Source: Verrucomicrobiota bacterium
Lineage (GTDB): Bacteria; Verrucomicrobiota; Kiritimatiellia; SS1-B-03-39; UBA6053
NCBI GenBank assembly: GCA_020831625.1
Contig: JAFIGD010000011.1
Coordinates: 1 to 64,000, forward strand
DNA: 64,000 bases
Direction: 5' to 3'
Numbering within the stretch: the first letter of the stretch is position 1; every line of letters begins with the position of its first letter. Positions 5,503-56,752 of this stretch are shown in pieces. The position numbers and the translations under genes are program-made. The notes below the pieces were generated by a model. That model was given only the letters and a program-made list of their open reading frames with translations. It had not been told where the DNA came from and ran no database searches.

Positions 5503-5897
5503 AATTAGGTCAGAGGGTAGGGGTCAGGGAAGAGTTGAGAGATGAGTAATCTTTTTCTTTATCGTAATCGTAATCGTAATCGTAATCTTAATCGGTTTTA
5601 GAGCCTTATTAGAGGTCAAAGGTCAGAGGTCAGGGAAGAGGAGAGAGAGGGAGGGAGAGTTCGATTTGGGAGTTCGAGTTCGAGAGAGAGGGGGGAAGAC
5701 TGACTGTTGATAGGGTTTCGTGATGGAATCGGTGTTTGTTGTAAGATAAAATGATAAAATTTGCAATGCGGGACTGCGATAGAACTTTTCGCCAAGGGGG
5801 AGGACACGCGGGTGAAAATCTTGAGAACCTTTTATCTTTAATCGTTATCTAATCCCGGGTTCATCATAATCCCATAGGGTTTTACTAAGATGTCCGG
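5503..5897. repeat. Intergenic composite of short-unit repeats
   Basis: This 395-bp gap between the divergent dapF and prepilin genes holds hexamers TCGTAA/TCTTAA (5561-5594), AGAGGTC-type heptamers (5609-5633) and a GAGTTCGA-rich stretch (5655-5697). The same kinds of unit recur at 17069-17370. The right part (5700-5897) is AT-rich and should hold the promoter of the prepilin gene, but no clear -35/-10 pair stands out. Confidence 0.65.
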
Positions 5898-16921: not shown

Positions 16922-17040
16922 GAATGGGGAGTGACGAGTGACGAGTGACGAATGACGAGTGACGAATGGGGAGTGACGAGTGGGGAGTGACGAATGGGGA
17001 ATGACGAGTGACGAGTGGGGAGTGACGAGTGGGGAGTGAC
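16922..17040. repeat. Heptamer array GAGTGAC/GAATGAC/GAGTGGG
   Basis: Seventeen contiguous 7-nt units of the form GARTGRS, alternating GAGTGAC, GAATGAC, GAGTGGG and GAATGGG with no break in phase. It starts 3 bp from the def start codon. Related units are found at 46999-47136 and, as GAGTGCG/GAATGCG, around the RAYT gene. Confidence 0.9.
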
Positions 17041-17068
17041 GCGTGAAGGGGAGTGAAGAGGTGGGAGG

Positions 17069-17370
17069 TGGAGAGTTCGAGTTTGGAGTTCGAGTTCGAG
17101 AGGAAGGGGTGGGGAGCTTAATCTTAATCTTAATCGTAATCTTAATCTTAATCGTATTCGGCGTTGGGTTTGTTTTTAGAGGGTAGAGGTCAGAGGGTAG
17201 AGGTCAGAGGGTAGAGGGTAGAGGGTGGAGGTCAGAGTTCAGTGAAGAGGTGAAAGGAATACGTTTGAAATCGAACGTCCAACTTTGAACGTTGAACATC
17301 GTAATCGGGGTCGGGGGATTAAGATTAAGATTAAGATTAAGAGTAAGATTAAGAGTAAGATTAAGGTTAG
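17069..17370. repeat. Composite short-unit repeats (hexamers and AGAGGTC heptamers)
   Basis: In order: GAGTTCGA-rich stretch (17069-17112), CTTAAT/CGTAAT hexamers (17117-17157), AGAGGGT/AGAGGTC heptamers (17176-17240), a TTGAACG-type stretch (17262-17300) and ATTAAG hexamers (17318-17370). The two hexamer arrays are inverted to each other. The 496-bp gap between def and the mannosyltransferase gene is thus almost wholly repeat; I see no gene in it. Confidence 0.8.
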
Positions 17371-17415
17371 GATGGGAATTTACAGGAGGGAGGTGGTTTT
17401 ATAAGGAAGTTGTTC

Positions 17416-42604: not shown

Positions 42605-44248
42605 TTACTCGGGCCGGATCCAGTGGTTGGAGCGGACCATGCGGCCGTTTGTCTGGATGGCGCGGGCCTGGAGGCGGAGGGGGCCTTCGCCGGTGAGGGC
42701 TCGGGGGAGGGTGAAGGTGTGGCTTTTCCCGCGGGGCTCGGCCTGATCGATGCGGCGGTTGCCCTGCCAGAGTTCGAGCTGGGCGAGGTCGTGACTGCCG
42801 GAGACCTCGAGGCGGAGGGCGTCGCGGGGCTGACGGCGGGGGGCGGTGAGGGTGAGGGTGCGGGGAACGGGCGAGGGAATGGTTTTGCGGAGGTGAACCA
42901 GTTCGGGCGGGGCCCAGAGGCGGCGGACGTGGAGGAGGACGTCGAGACTGGGGCCGGTGGTTTCGGGATGGGCCTCCCAGGTCCATTCAGGCCCGTTGCC
43001 GGGAATGCGGACGCCGTCGAGGTAGAGATGGGCGTCGGTGCCGGGGCCGGTGCGGACGCCGCTCAGCGTGAGGGTGAGGGTGTTGCCTTCCCAGGCGGCT
43101 TCGAGCCTGGCGTTGGCGGGGGTGTTTGCCCAGGGGCGGCAGAAGGGGTCGCCGATGGCGAGGGACTGCCAGGGGTGGCCGTGGGACTGCATGAGGGCTT
43201 CGAGCAGGGTGTTGCCGAGGGCGTAGCGTTCGAAAATTTCGGCGACGGGAAATTTGGTCCAGATGGAGAGGGGCTCGTCCACGGTGCCGACGGTTCCGGC
43301 GGCGCCGGCGGCGATCCATTCGGTCATTTTGGTTTGCTGCCGGTTGTGGAGGGCACCGGCGAAGCTGGTGAGGTGTTCGGCGAAGGCCCCGGGCACAAGG
43401 CGGCCGCGGTAGCGGGCGACCGGCACGGTGGCCGCGCCTTCGAGGGCACCGATAATCTGATCGGGGAGCGGGGTGTCGCGTTCGGCGAGATGCACGGGAA
43501 TGCCGCGGGCCTCGAGACGCTCTTTGGCGGGTTCGAACTGGTGGATCCGGGCACGGGTGCGCACATCGGTGTTGGTGATGATGGCCACGGAGCCGGCGGG
43601 GGAGGTGAAGTCGGCATCGCGGCTGCGGGTGAGCGCGGTGATGATGCTGTCGGGATCGAGCGGTTCTTGAAACACACCGAGCATCATGGCGGGGTGGAGA
43701 GAGGTGTCGCGGAGGGCGGGCGAGGGGTAGCGGGGCAGGGGACGGCCCTGGGCGCGTTCTTCGGGGGTGACGAACCAGGGGGAGCGCGCCTGACCGTTTT
43801 TGATGTGTTCCTCGGGGGGGAGTTCGCCCCGGGAGGCGATGTAGGCGGTGACGCTGACGGGCGTGCCGTCATCGTGCCGGGTGTGAATCGGCCAGTCGGG
43901 CGAGAAAATCAGGGCGGTGGGGGCGGGATCGTCGAGTGCGTTGAGTTTGGCGAGCACGGGTTTAAGGAGCTGATCGTTGACGGCCACGCGGTTGACGCGC
44001 CAGCGGGTGGTTTGATTTTCGCGGAAAAACTCCTCCGGCGGGGTGAGGACGAGAACGCGGTCGTCGGGGATGTGGCGCAGGGCGATGAAGTGGTTGGCGA
44101 CCTTGAGGGCGTCGGGTGAGGAGCCGTTGACGATGAGCAGGCTTTCCGAGGGAAGCTGGGCGTTGAGGCGAAAGCCGGACAGAAGGCTGAACAGAAGGCT
44201 GAACAGAAGGCTGAACAGAAGGAAGGGCGTGAGCGGACGTGTTTTCAT
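42605..44248 (-). CDS. TIGR03790 family protein
   Basis: A 547-aa exported protein. The core after the signal peptide, LLIVNGSSPDALKVANHFIALRHIPDDRVLVL, matches the TIGR03790 family (unknown function, common in PVC bacteria and Acidobacteria). The body is about 450 residues of alternating strands and helices, with a beta-rich Ig-like end (about 400-547). The signal peptide contains three repeats of LLFS, encoded by a 12-bp tandem repeat at 44180-44223. A divergent phosphatase gene begins 51 bp away. Confidence 0.8.
   Translation of the reverse strand: MKTRPLTPFLLFSLLFSLLFSLLSGFRLNAQLPSESLLIVNGSSPDALKVANHFIALRHIPDDRVLVLTPPEEFFRENQTTRWRVNRVAVNDQLLKPVLAKLNALDDPAPTALIFSPDWPIHTRHDDGTPVSVTAYIASRGELPPEEHIKNGQARSPWFVTPEERAQGRPLPRYPSPALRDTSLHPAMMLGVFQEPLDPDSIITALTRSRDADFTSPAGSVAIITNTDVRTRARIHQFEPAKERLEARGIPVHLAERDTPLPDQIIGALEGAATVPVARYRGRLVPGAFAEHLTSFAGALHNRQQTKMTEWIAAGAAGTVGTVDEPLSIWTKFPVAEIFERYALGNTLLEALMQSHGHPWQSLAIGDPFCRPWANTPANARLEAAWEGNTLTLTLSGVRTGPGTDAHLYLDGVRIPGNGPEWTWEAHPETTGPSLDVLLHVRRLWAPPELVHLRKTIPSPVPRTLTLTAPRRQPRDALRLEVSGSHDLAQLELWQGNRRIDQAEPRGKSHTFTLPRALTGEGPLRLQARAIQTNGRMVRSNHWIRPE
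44180..44223 (-). repeat. 12-bp tandem repeat inside a signal peptide
   Basis: Slightly over three and a half copies of the + strand unit ACAGAAGGCTGA encode repeated LLFS residues in the hydrophobic core. Length change keeps the frame and would lengthen or shorten the signal peptide by four residues. Confidence 0.8.
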
Positions 44249-44874: not shown

Positions 44875-46326
44875 TTATACCAGCCCCAAACTGTCGATGA
44901 AGTGGTCTTCGAAGCTTGTGATTTGGTTGAGTTCGATGAGTTTAATCCCGGCTCGGACTGCTTCCATGCGGGGGAGGGCGTTGGCGGTGAGGAGGGAGAG
45001 GGTGGCGCCGGCGAGGGAGGCGTTGCCGACGAGGTGAACACGGTCGGGGGAGACGGGGGGAATAAGGCCGATGGATTGGGCGTGGGCGGGGGTCAGGTGA
45101 TAACCAAAGCCGCCGGCGATGTAGACGTGTTGCAGATCCTGCGGAGAGATTCCCGCGCATTCGCAGAGGGTGGTCCATCCCGCCTGAATTGCGGCTTTGG
45201 CCTGGAGCAGTTCCGCGATGTCGGCTTCGGTGATGACAACGCCGGGGGCGGGGTTGATTCCGTGGATGCTCTGAAAGCGTCCGGACGCGCTGAGCCATCC
45301 GGCTTCCCGGGCGAGGGCGATGGCATCGACATAGGCGGCGCCGGAAATGGCGTGGCCTGATTGGCCGCCGGAAAGTTCGGCGAGGGTGTTGAAGCGGGAG
45401 ATGACGCCGGGTCCGGCGGCGGCACCGCATTGGAGTCGTCCGCCTTCGAAGGCGGGTCCGGCGGCGGTGGCGGTCGCCCAAAGTCCGTCGCGGGTCTGCA
45501 ACAGAATTTCGCCGTTGGTGCCGAAGTCGATCAGCAGTGCGGGCGGTTCTGCGTCCAGACAGCCGCAGGCCAGCGCCCCTGCAAGCACATCGGAGCCGAC
45601 GAAGGGGCCCGGGGAGGGCAGCAGGGTGAATTCCAATCCCTCGATCTCAACACTGCGGGAATCGAGAAAGACGGGCTTGAAGGGCCAGGAGGAGAGGCCT
45701 TTCAGAGATTCTCCCGCGAGAATGTGGAGCATGACCGGATTGCCGGTCACGGTCCACGTTTCCGGTACTTCGCCGCCACAGACATCACGGAGCAGCGGAA
45801 GGATACCCTCCCGCAAAAGGGTTTCGCGGAGGATAGCCAGGCCTTCCGGCTGATCGAGCGTGAACTGAATCCGGCTGACCACGTTGTCGCCGTGGGCCCG
45901 CTGCGGGTTGGCGCGGGTGGCAGTGCGGACACAGCTCGGGGGCGACCCCGTCCAGTAGGAAGCCGCCAGGGTGGTGGTGCCCAGATCCAGGGCCACGCCG
46001 TTGGCCCGCGGGAGCGGGTCCAGGGAATCCAGCAGCCGCGGCGGAATTTCGAAGGCGCTGACCCCGTGGATGGAGGCGTCGTGAAGGGAGGCTCTGGGCA
46101 GAAGGATGGTTTGATCCGCCAGGGTGTCCGCCGCGCATTGACAGGCCTTCAGTGTGCGGTTCTCCACACGCACTTCGCATCCCCGGCAGAGGCCGCGCCC
46201 GCCGCAGCGGGTGTTCAGCGGTCTGTCGTTCATTGCAAACCAGGCGCTCAGCGTCATGTCCTTGCGGGGATCAATCGGCATGGAAAGGACCGCCCCGCGC
46301 TCATCCACGACGTGGGGCGGGATCAT
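44875..46326 (-). CDS. RACo-like corrinoid-activating ASKHA protein (DUF4445) with 2Fe-2S domain
   Basis: A 483-aa protein. The N-terminus is a ferredoxin-like module with Cys ligands in RCGGRGLCRGCEV and KACQ. An actin-like ATPase domain follows: ALDLGTTTLAASYW, TGNPVMLHILAG, LIDFGTNGEILL and IAGGFG. This is the layout of RACo proteins, which use ATP to reduce Co(II) corrinoid proteins back to active Co(I). It is shorter than RACo (about 630 aa), with less middle region. I use the ATG at 46326, which overlaps the CobW-DUF1638 stop by 4 bp; the frame opens 30 bp earlier. No corrinoid protein is in this window. Confidence 0.85.
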   Translation of the reverse strand: MIPPHVVDERGAVLSMPIDPRKDMTLSAWFAMNDRPLNTRCGGRGLCRGCEVRVENRTLKACQCAADTLADQTILLPRASLHDASIHGVSAFEIPPRLLDSLDPLPRANGVALDLGTTTLAASYWTGSPPSCVRTATRANPQRAHGDNVVSRIQFTLDQPEGLAILRETLLREGILPLLRDVCGGEVPETWTVTGNPVMLHILAGESLKGLSSWPFKPVFLDSRSVEIEGLEFTLLPSPGPFVGSDVLAGALACGCLDAEPPALLIDFGTNGEILLQTRDGLWATATAAGPAFEGGRLQCGAAAGPGVISRFNTLAELSGGQSGHAISGAAYVDAIALAREAGWLSASGRFQSIHGINPAPGVVITEADIAELLQAKAAIQAGWTTLCECAGISPQDLQHVYIAGGFGYHLTPAHAQSIGLIPPVSPDRVHLVGNASLAGATLSLLTANALPRMEAVRAGIKLIELNQITSFEDHFIDSLGLV

Positions 46327-47933
46327 GCGAAAATCTCCGCGTTCCCGGAGGCGCACAGCGACTGACCCGGCGCAAGGGTCACAAAGCGTTTTTCGTCCCA
46401 GAGGCCGCTGAAAAAGTCCTCCAGCCAGCGGGTGTCCGCCTCCTCAGCGGTGAAGCGCCAGCCCAGATGGGCGGCGCAGCGCTTGCAGTAGGATTCGCCC
46501 TCCTCCGCAGCCGGGGTGCGGATAAACAAGGCCTGTTCATAGGGAGCAAAGGCTTCGCGGTCGGCTTCGATGAGTTCCCCGATCATTTCGTCATCAAATT
46601 TTTCCGCGTAGAGCTCCCGCAGCCAGTCGGCGCGGTCGGGCCCCGGCACCCTGCGCTCGCGAATCCAGCCGCGTGAATAGAAATAGGTGCCCGCGCAGGC
46701 CTTCTGAATCTGCTGGTGCCGTTCGTTGGAGCCGAGGAGCAGAGCGATGCAATCGTGGGCCCGGGGGAGAATCAGCGGACGCCGCCGGGCGGTGATACCG
46801 TCGAGTCCGCCCCCGCAAAGACCATACAGGAGCAGGACAGGATCATCGCCCGGCTCGGCATCCAGGGCGTCGACTTCTGCCTGAAGACGGCGGCGCAGTT
46901 CGTCGGGTCTGTCGTGAAGCCCCATCTCCAGCCAGCGCACAGGGGGCAGTGGAAGCGCAAGCGCCTGCAGTTCATCGCGGAAGACATCGCAGGCGAGGAG
47001 GAATGACGAGTGACGAGTGACGAGTGACGATTGACGAGTGACGAATGACGAGTGATGCGTGTCGAGAGACGCGATGCGGACCAATTGCGGTTGGCGCTTT
47101 ACATTCGTCATTCCACATTCATCACTCGTCACTCGAATCCCTTCCGGCGTGAGATCGATCTGCATCAGCGTGCCGCCGACGCGGGCGGTGCCTTTGACGC
47201 GGTGGGCGTCGCCGCACCAGGCCAGGAGTTCATCCTCATTGGCGAAGTCGGGCGGGGTGAGCGTTTCCGCCTGAAAGCGGAGGGCGCTGCACTTGCCGAA
47301 GGGTTCGTGGGGGAGGGGGACGGTCCGGGGAAGGTTGAGATCGGGGAGGTCCTGACAAAAGGAGGTCTCCACGACACGGGCGTGGGGACAGAGGGCTTGG
47401 ACGGTTTCCCGGCAGTCGTTGATTTGTTCGGGGCTGGCCAGATCGCATTTGTTGAGCAGGAGGGTGTCTGCGGCGCGGAGCTGGGCCTTCATCACCGGGA
47501 GCTTGCCGTGGAGTTTTCGGAAACTTTTCGGGGTCAGGACGGTGACAATGCTGCGTACTTGGAGTGCATCACCGTAGCCCGCTTTTTCGATCAGGGTGCC
47601 GATGGCGGAGGGGTCGGCAATGCCGCTGGTTTCGATGACGAGGGCATCCAAGGGCAGTATTTGATGGGCAGGCATAACCTCCTCACGCATCATTCGCAGA
47701 AAATCCGCAGCCTTGCATTCGCAGAAGATGCTGCCGCCGACCACGGAAACGGTGTCCGGTCCCGAATCCCGCAGCCGTCCCGCGTCCACATCCCGGCCCG
47801 CCAGTTCGTTTACCAGAAAGACCATGCGGAGATCGGAGCGGGTTTCTGCAATCCGCCGCAGCAGGGTGGTTTTGCCGCTGCCGAGGAAACCGGTGATCAG
47901 GATGACGGGGAGGGGAATATGCGTTTTGATCAT
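46323..47933 (-). CDS. CobW/COG0523 GTPase fused to DUF1638
   Basis: A 536-aa protein. Residues 1-260 form a CobW-like metal-chaperone GTPase: Walker A ITGFLGSGKTTLL, the FCEC cysteine pair after VVGGS, and LNKCDL. Residues about 313-536 form a DUF1638 domain: ACDVFRDEL, LLYGLCGGGLDG, PRAHDCIALLLGS, GTYFYSRGW and CKRCAAHLGW. DUF1638 proteins are linked to corrinoid methyltransferases. Between them, residues about 265-312 are low complexity (SSFVTRQSSLVTRHSSF) and come from a translated heptamer array. The frame opens at 47969, but the ATG at 47933 begins the GTPase core. Either a true fusion, or two genes joined by the repeat. Confidence 0.85.
   Translation of the reverse strand: MIKTHIPLPVILITGFLGSGKTTLLRRIAETRSDLRMVFLVNELAGRDVDAGRLRDSGPDTVSVVGGSIFCECKAADFLRMMREEVMPAHQILPLDALVIETSGIADPSAIGTLIEKAGYGDALQVRSIVTVLTPKSFRKLHGKLPVMKAQLRAADTLLLNKCDLASPEQINDCRETVQALCPHARVVETSFCQDLPDLNLPRTVPLPHEPFGKCSALRFQAETLTPPDFANEDELLAWCGDAHRVKGTARVGGTLMQIDLTPEGIRVTSDECGMTNVKRQPQLVRIASLDTHHSSFVTRQSSLVTRHSSFLLACDVFRDELQALALPLPPVRWLEMGLHDRPDELRRRLQAEVDALDAEPGDDPVLLLYGLCGGGLDGITARRRPLILPRAHDCIALLLGSNERHQQIQKACAGTYFYSRGWIRERRVPGPDRADWLRELYAEKFDDEMIGELIEADREAFAPYEQALFIRTPAAEEGESYCKRCAAHLGWRFTAEEADTRWLEDFFSGLWDEKRFVTLAPGQSLCASGNAEIFA
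46999..47136. repeat. Heptamer array with inverted arm, inside a coding gene
   Basis: A left arm of GAGTGAC/GAATGAC-type units (46999-47060) and a right arm of reverse-complement units (ATTCGTC, CACTCGT; 47101-47136) flank a 40-bp centre. The array is read in frame as part of the CobW-DUF1638 gene. Confidence 0.85.
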
Positions 47934-54299: not shown

Positions 54300-54420
54300 T
54301 GCGGAGGAAATGTGACGCGCAGCGTCTTTGGAGTGCGCGTAGAGAGCACCGCGAAGCTACCGCTTTTGAGTGCGGAATGCGGAGTGCGGAATGCGGAGTG
54401 CGGAGTGCGGAGCGACGCGC
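54300..54420 (+). repeat. REP-like array, left of the RAYT gene
   Basis: One copy of the core (GACGCGCAGCGTC palindrome, then GGAGTGCGCGTAG and CCGCGAAGCTACCGCTTTT) is followed by six heptamers GAGTGCG/GAATGCG (54368-54409) and the start of another core. It matches the right-hand copies at 55049-55256. Confidence 0.85.
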
Positions 54421-54451
54421 ATTTATTCTATTTTCCCCTTGCATTTTTATG

Positions 54452-54470
54452 CGGATGATTAAAACATCCG
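54452..54470 (+). promoter_or_regulatory. Hairpin just upstream of the RAYT start
   Basis: CGGATG (54452-54457) pairs with CATCCG (54465-54470), ending 3 bp before the ATG. It replaces any Shine-Dalgarno site and could limit transposase translation or be bound by it. Confidence 0.5.
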
Positions 54471-54473
54471 TAT

Positions 54474-55025
54474 ATGAAAGAGATTGACTGGCATCATGCG
54501 CCTTTGCACCGGTTTGTGCCGAATGCGGTGCATATGATCACGGCGGCCACGTATGGAAAAAAGCACCTTTTCCGTGGGAACAAACGGTTGGCGTTTTTTC
54601 AGGAGACGCTGCTAAACGGCCTTGCGGAACACGGTTGGAAACCGCATGCCTGGGCCTGTTTGTCGAATCACTATCACGTGATCGTTAAGGCGCCCGGTGC
54701 GGGCGGTCTTTCGGAGCTGCTGCAAACCCTGCATTCCCGATTGGGGATGGGGCTCAACGAGCTGGACCACGTTCCCGGCCGTCAGGTGATGTATCAATTT
54801 TGGGACCGATGTATCACGTTTGACAAGAGTTACTATGCCCGCATGAATTATGTGATTCACAATCCCGTAAAACACGGTTTGGTTGAAGATGCCCGACTCT
54901 ACCCCTTTTGTTCCGCTGCCTGGTTTGAACGGAACAATTCCAAAAGTCTTTGCCGGCGTGTCTATTCCTACAAGTGGGACAAGGTGAAGGAACGGGATGA
55001 TTTTGATGTGCTATGGGAGCCGTAA
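54474..55025 (+). CDS. REP-associated tyrosine transposase (RAYT, Y1/HUH)
   Basis: A 183-aa IS200-like single-strand transposase. The HUH metal motif is NHYHVIVK (His66, His68), and the catalytic Tyr is probably Tyr126 in MNYVIHNPVKHGLV. Length and these motifs fit RAYT proteins, which act on REP hairpins without being a full insertion sequence. REP-like copies flank the gene on both sides, within 60 bp on the left and 30 bp on the right, which supports the assignment. No terminal repeats of an IS are seen. The N-terminus begins in a hairpin with no ribosome site. Confidence 0.92.
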   Translation: MKEIDWHHAPLHRFVPNAVHMITAATYGKKHLFRGNKRLAFFQETLLNGLAEHGWKPHAWACLSNHYHVIVKAPGAGGLSELLQTLHSRLGMGLNELDHVPGRQVMYQFWDRCITFDKSYYARMNYVIHNPVKHGLVEDARLYPFCSAAWFERNNSKSLCRRVYSYKWDKVKERDDFDVLWEP

Positions 55026-55048
55026 GCCATAGGATTGCGGAGGAAATG

Positions 55049-55256
55049 CGACGCGAAGCGTCTTTGAAGTGCGTGTAGCGAGCCCCGTTGAGTGCGGAAT
55101 GCGGAATGCGGAATGCGGAGTGCGGAATGCGGAGCGACGCGCAGCGTCTTTGGGTGCGTGTAGCGAGCTCCGCGAAGCTACCGCTTTTGAGTGCGGAATG
55201 CGGAATGCGGAATGCGGAGCGACGCGCAGCGAGCTCCGCGAAGCTACCGCTTTTGC
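55049..55256 (+). repeat. REP-like array, right of the RAYT gene (three direct copies)
   Basis: Cores at 55049-55089, 55133-55188 and 55220-55256 are separated by heptamer runs (six units 55090-55131; four units 55189-55216). The third core has lost an internal stretch of about 20 bp. Units are GAGTGCG/GAATGCG and each run ends in GAGCGAC. The 344-bp gap holds no gene. Confidence 0.85.
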
Positions 55257-56641: not shown

Positions 56642-56680
56642 ACGATTAAGATTAAGATTAAGATTAAGATTAAGATTATG
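56642..56680. repeat. ATTAAG hexamer array
   Basis: About six copies of GATTAA in a 172-bp gap between the deacetylase remnant and the second XylR-type gene. It is the same unit as the arrays at 1891-1907 and 17318-17370. Confidence 0.85.
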
Positions 56681-56752
56681 ATTTGGATGAGGATGCAAAA
56701 TGGCTGTTGTTGACACGGGTTTTGGAGAAATGTCAAGCGGGGAGGGGTCGGC

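Follow-up and report, generated by a model that had tools for sequence, protein, structure and literature searches.

Heptamer arrays translated within a CobW-DUF1638 fusion gene of a Verrucomicrobiota bacterium most likely entered after the fusion

A gene of a Verrucomicrobiota bacterium that joins a CobW GTPase to a DUF1638 domain carries two arrays of short heptamers that are translated in frame. Judging from the comparison of related genomes, the gene was most likely fused already when the heptamers entered it, and they did not create the fusion. The gene lies at 46323-47933 (minus strand) of the window, that is, the whole stretch of 64,000 nucleotides that was analyzed, and its heptamers belong to a family, written here as GARTGNN, that is dispersed over the genome. 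The scenario in which the fusion came first, the arrays entered in frame, the encoded loops were tolerated, the units turned over and the protein serves in corrinoid reactivation is, as a whole, held with good confidence.

The CobW-DUF1638 fusion gene

The gene is one open reading frame of 536 amino acids with orthologues in related genomes. Pfam places a cobW GTPase domain (PF02492) at residues 9-188 (47370-47909, minus strand; E 3e-32, 112.1 bits against a curated cut-off of 20.7) and a DUF1638 domain (PF07796) at residues 334-506 (46416-46934, minus strand; E 2.4e-36, 125.5 bits against a curated cut-off of 27), which confirms the initial annotation in describing a single gene that joins both. 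Homology to stand-alone DUF1638 proteins starts at residue 312 (nt 47000): several short stand-alone ORFs align with LLACDVFRDEL through their residues 9-17, close to their N-termini. The remark that the domain starts as a stand-alone protein would (ACDVFRDEL) was a fair one. Pfam gives no match to the CobW_C domain (PF07683) in the fusions, but their strands can be aligned with those of stand-alone homologues in which it is recognized.

In a fold search, the model of the orthologue from another genus of the same family (G005, 54% identical) matched YjiA, a solved relative, as well as HypB and UreG, in all cases through the GTPase half, and nothing appeared for the DUF1638 half among the matches listed. 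Two congeners of the window genome (G001 and G003, ~80% identical) also carry the gene. Ka/Ks between congeners amounted to 0.15-0.19 in CobW and to 0.07-0.11 in DUF1638, so purifying selection acts on both domains; the join is less constrained or saturated.

Layout of the arrays within the gene

The unit search found a plus-strand array, antisense to the gene, at 47001-47056 (degenerate to 47071) and an opposite arm at 47100-47134; TRF reported the former as a heptamer array at 47004-47071 with 9.7 copies and a score of 94. The forward arm (47100-47134, minus strand) consists of five units in gene sense and occupies the turn preceding the last strand of CobW, at residues ~267-278. The inverted arm (47001-47071, minus strand), with about eight clear antisense units and further degenerate ones, encodes residues ~288-311 and stands in place of most of the last CobW helix and the connector. 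Between the arms lies a β strand of residues 283-289 (QLVRIAS; 47067-47087, minus strand), the last one of the CobW C-terminal region according to the alignment and the model. Its LVRI core aligns with LVFI of the G005 protein and with stand-alone CobW proteins and is native to CobW.

This layout modifies the earlier picture of a linker of about 48 residues made of heptamers and an inverted arm. The heptamers and the inversion are there, but they do not form a single block, as the native strand splits the array-encoded part into about 12 and 22 residues (~271-282 and ~290-311). The AlphaFold model of the window protein falls below a pLDDT of 50 only at residues 272-278 and 293-307, with a strand at 283-289, whereas the G005 fusion has no residue under that value, a short turn and an intact helix at 282-292; both models were built on shallow alignments of 22-23 sequences. 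The array-encoded loops are probably flexible, tolerated passengers with no function of their own.

Orthologues and order of events

Full-length matches to the fusion were searched for in 346 genomes of the class at E<=1e-45, a cut-off that could miss a very diverged fusion. Besides the window genome, only G001, G003 and G005 gave one; the copy in G002 is cut by a contig end. The comparison of orthologues that the initial annotation had proposed gave a graded picture: in other families of the class, the CobW and DUF1638 domains were found on separate ORFs; the G005 fusion has a connector free of heptamers; and both congeners have the fusion with heptamers. The reading frame is intact in all four fusion orthologues. 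Since two other assemblies have arrays at the same codon, a frameshift or assembly error as the source of the array, which had also been considered, is very unlikely.

Two origins had been left open at first: either the repeat entered a gene without breaking its frame, or it replaced a stop codon and the intergenic gap and so fused two genes. The former is favored, since G005 carries the same fusion without heptamers while three congeneric species carry it with them, frame and flanking domains being kept under purifying selection. This order, fusion and then repeat, is the parsimonious one; the heptamer-free fusion is known from one genome only, and loss of the array there is the alternative. 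According to that alternative, the array would have replaced the stop codon and spacer between neighboring genes, and G005 would have lost it later. The inverted arm does sit precisely where CobW ends and DUF1638 starts, and the latter begins as in stand-alone proteins. Nevertheless, in the G005 fusion the connector is ordinary and the last helix of CobW is intact, the forward arm lies inside CobW before the last strand, where no stop codon is expected, and GARTGNN arrays are also inserted in the middle of single-domain proteins. A fusion made by the array is for these reasons very improbable.

The forward arm begins 19 nt past the LTPE codon in all three congeners, in identical register, and the joins measure 165, 156 and 117 nt, all in frame. 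The fusion and the positions of the arrays are conserved between orthologues, but the linker sequence, whose conservation had been named as a point against the initial reading, is not, being of GAGTGAC type in one case and of GAGTGCG type in the other.

These join lengths also bear on whether the array could be a phase-variation switch, in which the gain or loss of 7-nt units shifts the frame and turns DUF1638 off. A slip of one or two units would indeed break the frame, since 7 is not divisible by 3. However, the joins differ between species by 9, 39 and 48 nt, which are multiples of 3 and not whole units, the imperfect units damp slippage, both domains are under purifying selection and the genes hit by arrays are not surface antigens. 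A switch of this kind is scarcely credible.

Returning to the favored order, genes for a CobW GTPase and for DUF1638 became one in an ancestor inside the family, as shown by the fusion being common to two genera while the domains were found on separate ORFs in other families of the class. Later, GARTGNN arrays would have entered the fused gene at two tolerant sites, one forward and one inverted; this step is placed in the ancestor of the genus because the forward arm has an identical start and register in the congeners. Once translated, the arrays would form flexible loops of low complexity, in which the exact sequence is of little weight, with selection keeping the frame and the flanking domains. 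Finally, the units would have turned over towards the prevailing type of each genome (GAGTGAC here, GAGTGCG in G001) via slippage and conversion between arrays.

A genome-wide family of GARTGNN arrays

In the 4.9-Mb genome, the three-unit pattern GARTGNNGARTGNNGARTG matches 785 times and its reversed control never, so heptamer arrays are present far beyond chance expectation. The same search gave 315 matches in G001, 15 in G002 and 23 in G003, and 10 or fewer (several times none) in the other relatives tested. In the window, an intergenic array of 17 units lies at 16922-17040 (plus strand; TRF and unit search), which TRF delimits at 16929-17046 with 16.9 copies. The initial annotation had already pointed to it as an occurrence of the same heptamer, which is borne out, yet it is one of a genome-wide family and not merely a second copy.

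In the window genome, 78% of the units are GARTGA, which creates a TGA codon in one of the three phases. Arrays in antisense stay open, and in-gene sense arrays are without GARTGA at the TGA phase. Several contigs of the assembly also begin or end inside heptamer arrays (C4:21, C7:5, C45:1, and the ends of C37 and C49); long arrays therefore probably interrupt the assembly and are under-represented in it.

Opposite arms are rare in this family. They were found within 250 bp in 2 of 58 array clusters, in a 1.15-Mb sample of the window genome partly chosen for arrays, and in 3 of 62 clusters in G001. This rarity could speak for the inverted arms of the fusion gene being kept as a hairpin in the mRNA (or DNA) with a role in regulating translation or in making the ribosome pause between domains during folding. 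Moreover, the two opposite arms are present in all three congeners, and their folding is strong, with energies of -54.2, -62.6 and -47.5 kcal/mol and z values of -5.3, -6.9 and -5.2. On the other hand, the hairpin follows from the inversion itself, as any inverted pair of one heptamer folds in this way; the arms vary in length and sequence between species, the G005 fusion works without them and other genes of the window genome carry single arms. A hairpin role is thus considered unlikely.

Other members of the family lie around a Y1-transposase-like gene at 54474-55025. GAGTGCG-type arrays (TRF and unit search) flank it at 54368-54409 and 55090-55216, both on the plus strand, and this region (54368-55216) holds, together with contigs C49 and C70, the only GARTGCG triples of the genome. 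Around the gene there are also inverted stretches and longer imperfect repeats, to which TRF assigns a period of 85.

With heptamer arrays and inverted repeats on either side of that gene, it could be proposed that a Y1/RAYT-type transposase spreads the arrays, as with REP elements, the array in the window being a REP-like insertion. But the gene reaches only 16.2 bits with PF01797, for which the cut-off is 23, and Y1_Tnp is equally common in relatives free of arrays: 19 Y1 matches and no arrays in G010 and 17 and none in G008, compared with 10 and 785 here. The transposase was rejected as the spreading agent, as PF01797 counts do not track array counts across genomes, and this explanation is improbable.

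Further simple repeats occur in the window. Hexamers of GATTAA/CTTAAT/TCGTAA type form a second dispersed repeat (1791-1908, 5546-5594, 17117-17156, 17317-17373 and 56644-56683), which in other contigs is translated as NLNLNRNRNR tails (L099:2412-4841; a 523-aa ORF at C80). A third repeat, the heptamer family TAGAGGG/AGAGGTC, adjoins the intergenic GARTGNN array at 17177-17242. In addition, a perfect 12-bp tandem repeat of 3.7 copies (44179-44222) encodes the hydrophobic core of the signal peptide, FSLLFSLLFSLL, of a 547-aa protein (42605-44248, minus strand).

Array insertions in other genes

Relative to orthologues, GARTGNN arrays are inserted in frame in unrelated genes. In the window genome, array-derived insertions were found in a sulfatase (~20 aa, absent from six homologues), in a YfhO-like protein (~45 aa, with a shorter insert of the other unit type in G002), in a DUF2298 membrane protein (~25 aa, absent from G001 and G003) and in a 1397-aa protein, whose counterpart in G001 shows only a short turn, DAPEGA, at this place. 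Conversely, one protein of G001 has an array insertion that its homologue in the window genome lacks. Simple heptamer arrays have been absorbed, with the frame kept, into conserved regions of several proteins for which heptamer-free homologues allow comparison.

Several other array-bearing ORFs were left out of consideration, since they are probably spurious or extend real genes upstream; among them are ORFs of 621 aa in C27, 717 aa in C2 and 358 aa in C4. The 225-aa gene of a C92-type peptidase (L065:7630-8307) was not retained as a clean empty-site case either, its sole close relative being a paralogue of the same genome with a different insert. These paralogues (L065:7630-8307; L147/L148, C110) are ~90% identical and carry unrelated in-frame inserts at the same loop, one heptamer-derived and the other a different stretch of ~60 aa. 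A TAGAGGG-like stretch is also translated in the 225-aa gene (GRGQRSEVRGQ).

Regarding annotation, HSSxVTR-like and SAECGVR-like peptides in GARTGNN-rich genomes should be read with caution, as they are repeat-derived.

Unit types in congeners

The first three units of the forward arm are GAGTGAC, GAGTGAT and GAATGTG in the window gene, GAGTGCG, GAGTGCG and GAATGCG in G001, and GAGTGCG, GAGAGCG and GAGTGTG in G003. The third one stands in the TGA-prone phase and is not GARTGA in any of the three; this reflects the kept frame and is no independent signal, because a stop there would end the ORF. A 680-aa gene (L106) behaves alike: at the same codon, and in the same register, it has GGAGTGACGAGTGTCGAGTGACGAGTGACGAGTGTC here and GGAGTGCGGAATGCGGCGTGCGGAGTGCGGAATGCGG in G001. 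Genome-wide, triples of GARTGAC type and of GARTGCG type number 498 and 13 here, versus 38 and 70 in G001.

These two genes suggest that the arrays were inherited and that their units turned over to the prevailing type of each genome, which best explains the shared sites; the alternative is independent insertion at the same nucleotide in congeners. It is conceivable, if rather less than probable, that dispersed heptamer arrays in this genus evolve in concert like eukaryotic satellites, being converted to one unit type genome-wide, translated arrays included. If so, orthologous proteins would swap a repeated peptide as a block (VTRHSSL-like to RTPHSAL-like; SDECRVT to SAECGVR) while the insertion site and frame stay fixed. 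A possible concerted turnover within coding sequence is the most interesting part of this work, and orthologous sites that differ in unit type make the spread and homogenization of dispersed short bacterial arrays testable.

Possible role in corrinoid reactivation

The 3' end of the fusion gene overlaps the downstream gene for a RACo/RamA-like corrinoid activase (44875-46356, minus strand; Pfam PF14574 and PF17651). In Phaeobacter inhibens, B12 reactivation has been linked by genetics to DUF1638 and to a RamA-like protein (PMC5764234; see also PMC12478193). DUF1638 is paired with such an activase here as well, but, unlike in P. inhibens, it is fused to a CobW GTPase, and UroD-type genes lie upstream of the fusion in G005. 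Based on the gene neighborhood and the published genetics, the fusion protein most likely has a role in corrinoid reactivation, in which it would help the neighboring activase to reactivate the corrinoid cofactor. The arrangement hints that a GTPase of metal-chaperone type works with DUF1638 in this process.

As a separate observation, the gene preceding the fusion in G005 (L123:1462-2874) is another unusual fusion, of URO-D with a thioredoxin-like domain whose match is slightly below the curated cut-off.

Comparison with known repeat systems

A limited literature search, including STRR and heptamers of Verrucomicrobia, found no description of the GARTGNN family. Three known systems are nevertheless close to it. 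The first are the TAACTGA heptamers of marine Beggiatoaceae, Cyanobacteria and Bacteroidetes (MacGregor 2015, PMC4679880), dispersed direct repeats that in part lie inside ORFs, mostly at protein edges, and that have stops in all frames in one orientation and are translated as a heptapeptide repeat in the other. GARTGNN shares with them the 7-bp unit, the head-to-tail arrays at many genomic sites and one stop-containing and one translated orientation. It works alike but is not that family: the unit is another one, the arrays are longer and more degenerate, they are seen inside conserved domains that have heptamer-free homologues, and the unit type differs between congeners at the same site.

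The second are the GGGAATC/GGGGAYT heptamers of Xanthomonas and Nostoc, which are spread genome-wide, lie in genes in 7-11% of cases in Xanthomonas and more often in Nostoc, and are not tied to insertion sequences (PMC4692102). GARTGNN arrays are likewise genome-wide and partly intragenic. However, the GGGAATC/GGGGAYT repeats form G-quadruplexes, while GGG runs are absent from the units GAGTGAC and GAGTGCG, and the effect on protein structure was not a subject of that study, in contrast to the present one.

Finally, the Rickettsia palindromic elements (RPE) invade unrelated genes with the frame kept and are translated, which the host protein seems to tolerate (reviewed in PMC10969869), and GARTGNN arrays resemble them in these features. 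RPE are defined palindromic units of ~150 bp, whereas GARTGNN arrays are simple tandem heptamers of variable length and usually single-armed; even in the window gene, which has one of the rare pairs of opposite arms, the core between them is native. Dispersed translated heptamers, intragenic heptamers and the in-frame invasion of genes are thus already known elsewhere, and GARTGNN is a further example with a unit of its own.
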